Shown one piece after another: positions 4,678 to 20,378 of a DNA stretch of 21,186 nt. The stretch is from IMG/VR virus record IMGVR_UViG_3300021424_000272, positions 1 to 21,186 of that record; one strand, 5' to 3'. Both the position numbers and the translations under genes were made by a program. This stretch comes from a virus. The notes beneath the pieces were generated by a model. It saw only the letters and a program-made list of their open reading frames with translations. It did not search any database and was not told the DNA's origin. Each line of letters starts with the position of its first letter. Position 1 is the stretch's first letter.

Positions 4678-5121
4678 ATGACAAGTAAATTACAAATACT
4701 TACTAATCCGTTGATATTAACAATAACATCCATATCCGGCTTATGTGCTTTTATATGTAGTTATTTTCTTAATCTATATATGAACAATCAAGACCAATAT
4801 ACCGCAGTAATTGGTGTAATGTTTTTAGATGGTATATTTGGAATAATAGCCGGTTCAAAAAAAGAGGGATTTAAAACACGCAAAGCCCTAGGTGTACTAA
4901 GAAATACTTTTGTTTGGATAATGATACTATCCGCAATACTAATGGTGGAAAAGGGTTTTAGTGGCACGGGTTGGTTGAGTGAAGTAATTGTTGTTCCATT
5001 TATGGTGTTTCAGTTAGTAAGTGCACTTAAAAACGCATCAATGGCAGGGTATATAAAGATGAGTTTGTTAAATGAGATACTTGATAAAATAGATAATCAC
5101 AAAGGAATTAGAAAGGTATAA
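4678..5121 (+). CDS. Phage holin (Phage_holin_4-like)
   Basis: 147 residues with about four hydrophobic segments (near residues 12-33, 43-60, 72-90 and 100-118). The pattern LDGIFGIIAGSKKEGF followed by KALGVLRNTFVWIMIL resembles the toxin-secretion/phage-lysis holin family, in which a conserved D-x-x-x-G is followed by a Lys-rich loop. It begins 1 nt after the previous stop and completes the lysis cassette with the GH19 endolysin. It would form the inner-membrane pores that release the endolysin. Family assignment is by motif recall. Confidence 0.75.
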   Translation: MTSKLQILTNPLILTITSISGLCAFICSYFLNLYMNNQDQYTAVIGVMFLDGIFGIIAGSKKEGFKTRKALGVLRNTFVWIMILSAILMVEKGFSGTGWLSEVIVVPFMVFQLVSALKNASMAGYIKMSLLNEILDKIDNHKGIRKV

Positions 5122-8175: not shown

Positions 8176-8340
8176 ATGAAAAAACTAATCGCAATTTTGA
8201 TGCTTGCTGTAACAGTTATGGCTTGCTCAAACAACCAAACCACCACAACCGAAACTACAGGTGAGCCGGTAGATTCAACTCTTTTCCAAAATACTGTGGA
8301 ATTGGGTGGTGGTGTTGATACTACTGCTGTAGCACAGTAA
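8176..8340 (+). CDS. Small phage lipoprotein
   Basis: 54 residues, too short for many gene callers. The N-terminus MKKLIAILMLAVTVMACSNN is a textbook lipoprotein signal with lipobox VMAC and lipidated C17. Serine at +2 permits outer-membrane sorting in enterobacteria, although Bacteroidota rules differ. The mature part is about 38 residues rich in Thr, Gly and Val. Possible roles are superinfection exclusion at the cell surface or the outer-membrane half of a spanin pair; the latter is less likely because the gene is 3.5 kb from the lysis genes. It is followed directly by the tRNA-like region. Confidence 0.75.
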   Translation: MKKLIAILMLAVTVMACSNNQTTTTETTGEPVDSTLFQNTVELGGGVDTTAVAQ

Positions 8341-8347
8341 TCAACTA

Positions 8348-8418
8348 AGTCAGGTGGCGGTATTGGTTATGGCCCGCTCAGAAATGAGAAAGCACAGGTT
8401 CGAATCCTGTCCTGACTA
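8348..8418 (+). ncRNA. tRNA-like element lacking a proper anticodon arm
   Basis: Acceptor AGTCAGG (8348-8354) pairs with CCTGACT (8411-8417), and the T arm is ACAGG-TTCGAAT-CCTGT. The 5' side reads TGGCGG as in leucine-type tRNAs. In place of a five-pair anticodon stem and seven-base loop there is only CTCA-GAAA-TGAG (8378-8389), a four-pair hairpin with a GAAA tetraloop. At 71 nt it is shorter than a normal tRNA and cannot present an anticodon in the usual way. It may be a decayed copy, a processing or recombination remnant, or a tRNA mimic. Confidence 0.55.
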
Positions 8419-8627
8419 CACGTTCCGAAACAAGACAACGGATAGTGTGCTCTACACGATGAGAAACGGAGTGATGTCCGTATGAGACTGCTGATAGGAC
8501 AAGGTTCTATTTAGATTGACTATCTACTGAAAGAGGGAATAAATAGTAACCCAAATAGTCTATTCCTAACTCAAGAAATTGAGGACAGCCACAACACCTG
8601 TAAGTTGGATAAATTAGGGTGTTACTT
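8418..8627 (+). ncRNA. Hairpin-rich spacer RNA between tRNA-like elements
   Basis: Hairpins read by eye are: 8418-8448 (ACAC/GTGT and TCCG/CGGA with an internal loop), 8466-8481 (ACGGA/TCCGT), 8512-8526 (TAGAT/ATCTA), 8536-8566 (GGAATA/TATTCC), 8570-8583 (CTCAA-GAAA-TTGAG, a GNRA tetraloop) and 8593-8623 (AACACC/GGTGTT). The density of stems and the GNRA loop suggest a folded RNA. I cannot match it to a named class. GACTA (8518-8522) and TAGTC (8556-8560) could pair as in the P7 helix of a group I ribozyme, but the other core elements were not found. Confidence 0.4.
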
Positions 8628-8741
8628 AGTCAGGTGGCGGAATTGGTAGACGCACACAAGATGGGGAAGGCATAATAATTGCGAAAAGTCAGTACCCTAC
8701 AACTTGTTATAGAATTACAGGTTCGAATCCTGTCCTGACTA
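8628..8741 (+). tRNA. tRNA-Leu-like gene with enlarged anticodon region
   Basis: Acceptor AGTCAGG/CCTGACT with A8741 as discriminator, a leucine-type D arm (TGGCGGAATTGGTAGACGC) and T arm ACAGG-TTCGAAT-CCTGT. The element is 114 nt, about 29 nt longer than a standard tRNA-Leu. ACAAG (8656-8660) can pair with CTTGT (8703-8707), but 42 nt lie between them where a seven-base anticodon loop is expected, so no anticodon is called. The excess contains TGGGG/CCCTA (8662-8666/8695-8699) as a possible inner stem. It may carry a short intron-like insertion, be inactive, or be part of a larger RNA. Confidence 0.5.
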
Positions 8742-8756
8742 CTAAAGATTAATGAT

Positions 8757-8948
8757 ATGAGTTTAGATTGGAAACAAGTTTATATTGAAATGGGTTCTCG
8801 TGATAAAAAAACAAAGAAACTCAAATATTACAATGTTACATCTTTTAATCACAAACGATTTACCTGCAATTGTCCTGCGTATGAGTTTGGTAGGGGTTCG
8901 GAGTGTAAACATATTAAAAATTTAAAAAGAAAATTATCTATTGTGTAG
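8757..8948 (+). CDS. Stand-alone SWIM zinc-finger protein
   Basis: 63 residues holding essentially only a SWIM finger, C-x-C-x(10)-C-x-H: C37, C39, C50 and H52 in FTCNCPAYEFGRGSECKHIK. SWIM domains bind DNA or protein and usually sit in larger ATPases or recombination factors, so a free-standing minimal one is notable. The N-terminus (YYNVTSFNHKRFTCNC) fits the strand before the finger. The gene follows the tRNA-like region by 15 nt with no clear Shine-Dalgarno. Confidence 0.75.
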   Translation: MSLDWKQVYIEMGSRDKKTKKLKYYNVTSFNHKRFTCNCPAYEFGRGSECKHIKNLKRKLSIV

Positions 8949-9445: not shown

Positions 9446-10012
9446 ATGGCAAATACAGTATTTAATTACATCACTATCAACAACGCTGATGGGAATGTAG
9501 TAGAAAAAATTAAAGAAATTTTCAAATCCACTAATGAAGACCCATTTGAAACAACATTCACAGTTGAATTGGTAAATGCTCTTTTTGATAATATATGGCC
9601 TAATGGTAATGATGATTATGATAGAAGTTGGGTAGAAAACAAATGTGGAGCAAAGTGGTTTAATGGGTATGTGAGTGATTATGGTGATGATGGAACTATT
9701 ACGATAAATATAGATTCCGCATGGGACCCCATTTTTGGTTGGGTTGAAAAATTAGCAGAGGTATTATCTAATATCAAATCCGATGTTTGGATTCAAAACA
9801 AATTTGAAGATGAAGGTTACAACTTTGCCGGAGTTCATTTAATAGCAAAAGATTATTCTTCAGATGAATATATTGAAATGGAAGATTGGGATGTAGATAA
9901 ATTTTTTGAGGGTGGTGAAGAATATAATTTATATTGTGATAAACTGTCAAATATGATGGATGAAGAAGTTGATGCATATTTTGAATATTTAAAAAGTATA
10001 GAAAATGAGTAA
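9446..10012 (+). CDS. Api92/YubB-like (DUF1281-type) protein
   Basis: 188 residues. The pattern matches phage and plasmid proteins of the Api92/YubB ferredoxin-like family: N-terminal FNYITINNADGNVVEKIKEI, the W-x-E-N-K-C-G-A-K-W motif, strands TITINIDSAWDP, a helix (WVEKLAEVLSNI) and FEDEGYNFAGVHLI. The C-terminus is very acidic. Function in this family is not known to me, although it is common in phage early or accessory regions. It overlaps the next gene by 8 nt. Confidence 0.65.
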   Translation: MANTVFNYITINNADGNVVEKIKEIFKSTNEDPFETTFTVELVNALFDNIWPNGNDDYDRSWVENKCGAKWFNGYVSDYGDDGTITINIDSAWDPIFGWVEKLAEVLSNIKSDVWIQNKFEDEGYNFAGVHLIAKDYSSDEYIEMEDWDVDKFFEGGEEYNLYCDKLSNMMDEEVDAYFEYLKSIENE

Positions 10013-11150: not shown

Positions 11151-13392
<2,242 letters not shown>

Positions 13393-19553: not shown

Positions 19554-20378
19554 ATGAATAAAATATATCAAATATTCAAAGAGTATAAGTGTAAATTACT
19601 ATTAATTTATTTTTTTATGTTGGTAACGGAGTTATCAATGATATCACAGCCATTTTTACTTGGGAAAAGTATTGATGGATTAATTAATGGTGGTTGGTTT
19701 TGGATTATCTTATTATTTTTATCCTACTCCATTTCTAGTCTCGTCAATTACAAAAGAATGGTTTATGACACCAAAGTTTATACACAAATTTACAATGATA
19801 TTGTTTTACGATTCTTAAAAACTAATAACAAATCTGATTCTGTAAAAATTGCCAGAGCTGATATGGCACACGATGTTGTTGGTGTATTAGAGGGATATGT
19901 TCATTATTATATTGCAACAATCATCACTATTTTTGGTTCAATAGGGTTCATATACTTATCAAATTGGAGAGTAGGGTTATTAGTTACTTTAGCTTTAATT
20001 GTTATAATACTTGCAGTTCTAATTTATTATAAAAAAATAAGACAATCTATTGATGTTAAAAACAATAATTACGAGAATAAAGTAACCGCTATACAAAATG
20101 GGTATGACACTTCCGTTTCTTTTTTTAATCGTAAGCGAAAATTGGAAATATTTGAATCAACATTGCAAGGTAAAAATTGGTTTTTGGTTGGCATGATAAA
20201 ATCAATATTTTTGGTTTTATCCATAATACTTCTAATAACAACTTCAAATAATATGACTGCTGGTAATGTGGTTACAATATATTCTTATGTTAATAATTTT
20301 TTGATATCACTAATGTCAATTCCAGTTGCGTTTGAGATGTTTTCGAGATTGAACAATATTATTAAAAGAATTAATTGA
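19554..20378 (+). CDS. ABC-exporter transmembrane domain without ATPase
   Basis: 274 residues with about six hydrophobic helices, ordered as in the membrane domain of ABC exporters (ABC_membrane/ABC_membrane_3 type): LLLIYFFMLVTELSMISQPF, WIILLFLSYSISSLV, the coupling-helix region (VKIARADMAHDVVGVLEGYV), IATIITIFGSIGFIYLSNW, and a final pair of spans. The protein ends without any Walker A, signature or Walker B sequence, so there is no nucleotide-binding domain. The frame ends with a normal stop and no ATPase follows in the next 800 nt. It may work with a host ATPase or act alone. Confidence 0.75.
   Translation: MNKIYQIFKEYKCKLLLIYFFMLVTELSMISQPFLLGKSIDGLINGGWFWIILLFLSYSISSLVNYKRMVYDTKVYTQIYNDIVLRFLKTNNKSDSVKIARADMAHDVVGVLEGYVHYYIATIITIFGSIGFIYLSNWRVGLLVTLALIVIILAVLIYYKKIRQSIDVKNNNYENKVTAIQNGYDTSVSFFNRKRKLEIFESTLQGKNWFLVGMIKSIFLVLSIILLITTSNNMTAGNVVTIYSYVNNFLISLMSIPVAFEMFSRLNNIIKRIN

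Follow-up and report, generated by a model that had tools for sequence, protein, structure and literature searches.

The window analysed here, a 21,186-nt stretch of viral DNA (IMG/VR record IMGVR_UViG_3300021424_000272), contains two tRNA-like elements (TLEs), named E1 and E2, on either side of a structured spacer RNA (SR). This E1–SR–E2 module sits in an apparent phage operon, between two small open reading frames (ORFs). Its features, all on the plus strand, are as follows:

8176..8340 (+): upstream 54-aa lipoprotein-like ORF, with its stop codon 7 nt before E1; a homologous flank is kept in loci L217 and L218
8348..8418 (+): E1, the short TLE, 71 nt, from sequence reading, the Rfam tRNA model and shuffle folding
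8348-8354 (+): AGTCAGG of E1, followed by the D region
8377-8388 (+): GAAA-capped 4-bp hairpin of E1, at the position of the anticodon arm
8394-8410 (+): T arm of E1, followed by CCTGACT (8411-8417) and discriminator A (8418)
8420..8623 (+): SR, structured RNA of 204 nt, starting one nt past the E1 discriminator; from a 26-sequence alignment
8424-8427 with 8439-8442 (+): SR helix H1, 98.1% paired, three of four pairs changed on both sides
8445-8448 with 8454-8457 (+): SR helix H2, 98.1% paired, two of four pairs changed on both sides
8450-8452 (CTC, H2 loop) with 8484-8486 (GAG) (+): SR pseudoknot PK1, 96.2% paired, all three pairs changed on both sides
8466-8469 with 8478-8481 (+): SR helix H3, all four pairs changed on both sides
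8512-8526 (+): SR hairpin H5, whose loop GACTA (8518-8522) pairs with TAGTC (8556-8560) to form pseudoknot PK2
8594-8598 (ACACC) with 8618-8622 (GGTGT) (+): SR 3′ hairpin H8, paired at 100%, with a two-sided change at one pair (in L073)
8628..8741 (+): E2, the long TLE, 114 nt, from sequence reading, the Rfam tRNA model and an exact 28-mer in relatives
about 8654-8716 (+): E2 core, in place of the anticodon arm, between the D and T arms
8656-8660 (ACAAG) and 8703-8707 (CTTGT) (+): E2 segments enclosing exactly 42 nt
8717-8740 (+): T arm and 3′ acceptor strand of E2, the same as those of E1
8757..8948 (+): downstream 63-aa ORF, starting 15 nt past E2; it lies beside a different TLE in L217 and L218

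Elsewhere, the window encodes a GroEL-like chaperonin (11788-13392) and an ABC-transporter membrane-domain protein (19554-20378; PF13748).

Direct reading of the sequence agrees with the initial annotation that E1 and E2 have the same 7-bp acceptor stem (AGTCAGG/CCTGACT) and the same T arm; the discriminator A is also identical and the D regions are nearly so. Both elements exceed the gathering score of 29 for the Rfam tRNA model (E1, 34.1 bits, E = 8e-4; E2, 40.4 bits, E = 1.5e-5), with the acceptor, D arm and T arm of a tRNA present in each. This generic model was the only one matched by E1 and E2 in an Rfam search of the window, and the SR matched no family. An anticodon arm, defined as a 5-bp stem and a 7-nt loop with U33, is absent from both elements, as had been observed at the outset, and the GAAA mini-hairpin lies in E1 as described. 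ARAGORN called neither element a tRNA and detected no tRNA or tmRNA in the window. The 5′ acceptor strand precedes the 3′ strand in both elements and a permuted or split tRNA was rejected on this basis.

Folding of E1 was better than that of 196 of 200 shuffles, and the minimum free energy (MFE) of E2 was no better than that of most shuffles. The loop of E2 that was originally described does span exactly 42 nt, but it is probably not open: candidate helices (GGG 8663-8665 with CCC 8695-8697; ATAATAA 8672-8678 with TTGTTAT 8704-8710) would allow nested or pseudoknotted structures. In the MFE structure of the 416 nt, the arms of E1 pair with those of E2; the proposed alternative pairing between the elements is thus thermodynamically possible, as far as energy prediction goes.

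The two elements belong to a large and apparently undescribed RNA family of uncultured phages. In IMG/VR, 41 viral stretches contain a 28-mer of E2 without mismatch, and a pattern scan for both constant ends around a 60–90-nt middle returned at least 119. We counted 281 distinct TLEs in the fetched loci, about 70–190 nt in length (a few longer matches are possibly joined neighbours), with a hypervariable core of 20–140 nt between the constant ends. None of the 281 lies within a long ORF, compared to 481 of 1500 random positions. A locus may hold up to 12 TLEs, and ordinary tRNAs, GOLLD and freshwater-1 RNAs are frequent neighbours. The constancy of the acceptor sequence is in part a result of having searched for it; when the acceptor was left unconstrained, complementarity at no fewer than 6 of 7 positions persisted in 10 of 12 distinct acceptor types by our own tally. 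A control search with a class-I D arm retrieved 61 stretches, indicating that long-core tRNAs also occur with shells other than the leucine type. Any claim that TLEs are unique is limited by this result, and the exchange described below is unaffected.

Outside viral metagenomes, matches were sparse. GTDB contigs contained one exact-end match, in a Chitinophagaceae MAG, and the general TLE pattern was found in 2 of 395 genomes of the phylum of this MAG and 0 of 296 of its family. The annotated phage records contained a single match to most of the constant ends, itself metagenomic, and blastn of L192 and L196 gave no host assignment. Since TLEs are rare in cellular genomes and the match is to one MAG, its phylum is a putative host phylum.

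TLEs are not tRNAs, in that anticodon arms occur in them only at the level of chance. Anticodon-like arms were detected in 16 of 262 TLE cores, compared to 12.3 ± 3.1 in shuffled cores, whereas the same test recovered them in 13 of 51 long class-I tRNAs of other phages, taken as a control, against 3.2 expected. These class-I tRNAs keep their anticodon arms and were separated from the TLE set. The chance-level result also led us to reject hidden tRNA introns in the cores. Separately, cultured jumbo phages carry long tRNA genes of 120–127 nt (L287 859-980, Pectobacterium CBB; L288 858-984, Cronobacter GAP32; L289 856-980, Serratia BF) with which a similar gene groups (L247 905-1026); the same position is annotated as tRNA-Phe, tRNA-Lys or pseudo. 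These genes keep the anticodon arm, and the 5′ strand of its stem is interrupted by a structured insert of ~50 nt; the stem covaries (ACA/TGT versus AGC/GCT) and the annotated anticodons disagree. The insert is either intron-like or stable.

The TLE cores are structured and their helices are maintained by compensatory change. In 49 of 227 cores, compared to ~11 expected, an H-type pseudoknot scored better than every one of 20 shuffles; this excess is modest (mean z of 0.8), some cores have no pseudoknot, and the second helix typically stops two nt ahead of the T stem. Across 38 families with some divergence, fully paired stems of at least 4 bp yielded 40 compensatory pairs, compared to a mean of 9.5 and a maximum of 17 in 50 column-shuffled controls. 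Clustering of 277 elements gave 202 groups, with 123 elements in 48 families of at least two members and the others singletons; given that ~150 of the 277 are singletons, core diversity is far from fully sampled. Some cores recur in otherwise unrelated phages. The E1 and E2 cores have no relatives in this sample, and the window's own cores are therefore without covariation support.

Recombination between cores and flanking genes has its breakpoints precisely at the ends of the TLEs. In a set of 295 non-redundant TLEs, 108 pairs have a common abutting flank and unrelated cores and 155 pairs have a common core and no common flank, compared to only 17 pairs with a common core plus at least one flank. 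For example, the 250 nt downstream of the TLE are 97% identical between L083 and L115, the cores of which are unrelated, and L094 and L172 match in both flanks around different cores. The window's own locus shows this most clearly. Its relatives L217 and L218 each contain a gene whose protein has 83% identity to that of window positions 9446-10009, and their DNA is 85–90% identical to the window on both sides of the module. Between the same two genes, they contain a TLE, an ORF of about 70 aa and a second TLE, with cores unrelated to those of the window. The alignment ends at 8345, the outer edge of E1, and restarts at 8716, in the T arm of E2. E1 and E2 are direct repeats around a cargo that is the SR in the window and an ORF in L217, and the second core of L217 resembles a family found in the otherwise unrelated loci L082, L083 and L115. 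Recombination between short identical ends would most simply account for this exchange. On these grounds, we propose that TLEs form a class characterized by a constant tRNA shell, a variable core without an anticodon and exchange at the ends.

The SR is a second, separate structured RNA family with strong covariation. The ~210-nt spacer (exactly 209 nt from E1 to E2) had initially been predicted to contain stems, and alignment of relatives confirmed them: across 26 distinct sequences, including the window, the 24 proposed pairs are 97.9% standard and 16 of the 24 changed on both sides. No shuffle equalled the covariation score, and sliding the partners reduced pairing to 26–49%. The SR of the window is of a second subtype, in which the hairpins are analogous. 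In an 11-sequence alignment of the main subtype, which does not include the window, H4, H5, H6 and PK2 are 97.7% paired, with PK2 at 100% and H5 at 93% with three pairs changed on both sides. We propose the SR as a family with conserved helices H1–H8 and two pseudoknots. The 19-nt loop of H8 is nearly invariant in the 26-sequence alignment; together with the two pseudoknots, this suggests that the SR is compact and that its partner, or a tertiary contact that it makes, is fixed. The 3′ hairpin motif was found in 40 viral stretches, and SRs were found neither in cultured phages by blastn nor in GTDB genomes by the 3′ motif.

The double pseudoknot of the SR is conserved, and the SR is fused flush to tRNA-like 3′ ends. 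Under strict criteria, the start of 13 of the 27 distinct SRs lies 22 nt from the GTTC of a T arm, one nt past the discriminator of a tRNA or TLE; three further flush junctions were recognized by eye (L055, L057, L013), and SRs outside the flush set stand alone. The flush start also follows ordinary tRNAs (L054, L058), and the TLE–SR–TLE arrangement recurs in L060, L063 and L064. Two further loci show irregular junctions. In L020 (13000-13300, minus strand), an SR without its H7–H8 3′ part runs straight into another TLE. In L049 (about 4700-4957, strand coordinates), the sequence passes from an ordinary tRNA to the 3′ end of a TLE and then to an SR, an apparent chimera that looks as if joined by recombination.

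A group I or II intron, ribozyme or riboswitch identity for the SR was rejected on the lack of an Rfam match. As for an intron, the pseudoknot has the order P(5′)-loop-P(3′)-hairpin-loop′ and no P4–P6 equivalent. Intron and ribozyme models gave no match in the window at E values up to 5 and, at the SR of ten other loci at E values up to 1, only weak sub-gathering matches in L043; sub-gathering matches to Plastid-ycf2, snoRNA, L20-leader and PrrB were read as chance. These results, with the normal 5′-to-3′ order of the tRNA ends, argue against the ribozyme or intron arrangement around a tRNA that the initial annotation had listed. Separately, one phage contig with an SR also has a Twister-P1-like match (L059 5061-5119; 52 bits, below the gathering score of 67).

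Comparison with known systems places TLEs near, and outside, several of them. Like leucine-type class II tRNAs (RF00005), they have a 7-bp acceptor, a TGGCGGAATTGGTAGACGC D arm, a GTTCGAATC T arm and the discriminator A; unlike tRNAs, they have no anticodon arm above chance and a 20–140-nt core that is often pseudoknotted. Phage tRNAs are documented to replace cleaved host tRNAs (PMC11555353), but such tRNAs need a working anticodon. The tmRNAs (RF00023) likewise combine tRNA-like ends with pseudoknots in the place of the anticodon arm; in contrast, they are 350–400 nt long, and TLEs of 70–190 nt have neither a match to the model, which was absent from the window, nor a tag frame. True tmRNA genes occur elsewhere in L026 and L112; that of L026, called by ARAGORN at 1051-1403, ends 5 nt before a TLE at 1409.

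Other phage RNAs have the setting in common with TLEs and SR. GOLLD (RF02032) and ROOL are ornate RNAs, with functions yet to be established, that lie close to tRNA islands (PMC12286853), and GOLLD is present in the TLE/SR loci L063 and L112; however, the SR is about 200 nt and fits neither model, and neither matched the window or the SRs. Freshwater-1 (RF02979), a structured RNA that precedes a TLE in L020 and is present in further TLE loci, is 62 nt and has its own sequence and structure. The 3′ tRNA-like structures of plant viruses also mimic tRNA using pseudoknots; they terminate RNA genomes, whereas TLEs are internal, discrete and multi-copy in DNA phages. The nearest functional analogue is the tRNA scaffold engineered for expression in E. 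coli, in which an RNA is inserted at the anticodon-arm position (PMC3753655); this scaffold is man-made, whereas TLEs are natural and phage-borne, with exchangeable inserts. A literature search that covered few subscription papers returned no RNA family in which swappable cores are held in a constant tRNA shell.

We interpret the module, with a probability of about 0.6, as a noncoding RNA processed by the tRNA pathway and built as TLE, structured RNA and TLE, the TLEs being cassettes that carry exchangeable payloads. In this model, a shell of acceptor stem, leucine-type D arm and T arm would hold an interchangeable folded core. The TLEs would most likely be cut from the transcript by RNase P and RNase Z of the host, along with its CCA-adding enzyme, giving them defined, protected ends and fixing the 5′ end of the SR; E1, SR and E2 would be released as separate RNAs and the neighbouring mRNAs trimmed. 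The tRNA fold would protect the RNA and the core would be the payload, which differs between phages because the cassettes recombine via their identical ends. The constant shell, the chance-level anticodon arms, the structured and compensating cores, the end-exact exchange, and the double pseudoknot and flush junctions of the SR are observed; that the module is transcribed, processed and given CCA tails, that the cores function as payloads and that they act against defences are inferred. Of the options first listed, a new structured RNA with tRNA-shaped ends is supported, as a large family with a covarying spacer, and the host processing attached to it is a prediction. Turnover of the cores suggests selection by a factor that varies between hosts, most simply host defences. 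That TLEs are natural tRNA-scaffold cassettes, with a constant, host-processed protective shell whose payloads are recombined to meet different host defences, is a tentative extension to which we give below-even odds.

We weighed this cassette model against four others. Mitochondrial tRNAs punctuate polycistronic RNA, and TLEs might similarly serve solely as cleavage signals that split a transcript and free the SR, with the core as a stable plug. Their intergenic positions and the spacing of E1 and E2 from the adjoining stop and start codons fit this idea. Proximity to start codons is moderately enriched: 59 of 211 TLEs have the ATG of an ORF (60 aa or longer) within 40 nt, near the value for canonical tRNAs (56/300) and compared to 69 of 677 random positions. 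Punctuation would explain neither the recurrence of cores with compensatory changes in unrelated phages nor the loss of the anticodon, since a plain tRNA would suffice, and we consider it unlikely. It is less probable still that the shell is the active part, a decoy or sponge for proteins that bind tRNA ends, such as CCA/acceptor nucleases, tRNA-modifying toxins or synthetases. The constant acceptor, D and T arms and discriminator A are in keeping with such a role, as are documented cases of tRNA-targeting immunity and phage tRNA counter-strategies (PMC11555353, PMC10264068, PMC12409363, PMC12851939), but the elaborate, changing core would be left unexplained. The decoy for tRNA-cleaving defence enzymes first envisaged, if meant for anticodon nucleases in particular, conflicts with the absence of anticodon arms above chance, given that anticodon-targeting systems require that loop; a decoy or anti-defence role through the tRNA ends or the core is possible.

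The TLE ends could instead act mainly as DNA, as docks for cassette exchange by homologous recombination or integrase, with the RNA incidental. The breakpoints at TLE ends and the direct repeats around the cargo are what such docks would produce. However, acceptor stems stay paired while their sequence changes and core helices are kept by compensatory change, which indicates that selection acts on the RNA and makes this reading very improbable. Finally, the initial annotation had considered a functionless, decayed tRNA cluster, and viewed singly the elements do appear degenerate, with no tRNA called by ARAGORN in the window. Decay is hardly credible for a shell and length range kept in 281 distinct relatives, none within long ORFs, with cores that recur in unrelated phages and covariation in both the cores and the SR.

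If the cassette model is correct, phages are a rich store of compact, structured RNAs in tRNA form that are passed on as modules, and the cores would be candidate agents of RNA-based counter-defence or host takeover, a category with few known members. In that case, many of the tRNA calls in phages that look odd or are labelled pseudo would be something else. The constant shell makes TLEs easy to detect and express, and the strongly covarying SR is suited to structure determination.

Further small features accompany some TLEs. A D-loop insert occurs in L060 (from 551), L009 (1186) and L185 (5130; strand coordinates for these two) and L046 (near 6688), and those of the first three loci contain the common motif ACAAAGAGTAATrGTATGTGC; judging from these sequences, insertions seem to have a second site in the D loop. 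Recurring leader hairpins were also observed upstream of many TLEs, for example of the form CAGAGGACTTCTCATCCTC in L060, L018, L065, L128, L163 and L217 and of the form GCTCGGAAAGACGAGC in L035, L046 and L106. They stop a few nt before the TLE 5′ end, loose patterns for the two forms fit 11 and 21 of 281 leaders, respectively, and they are possibly further small RNA modules.
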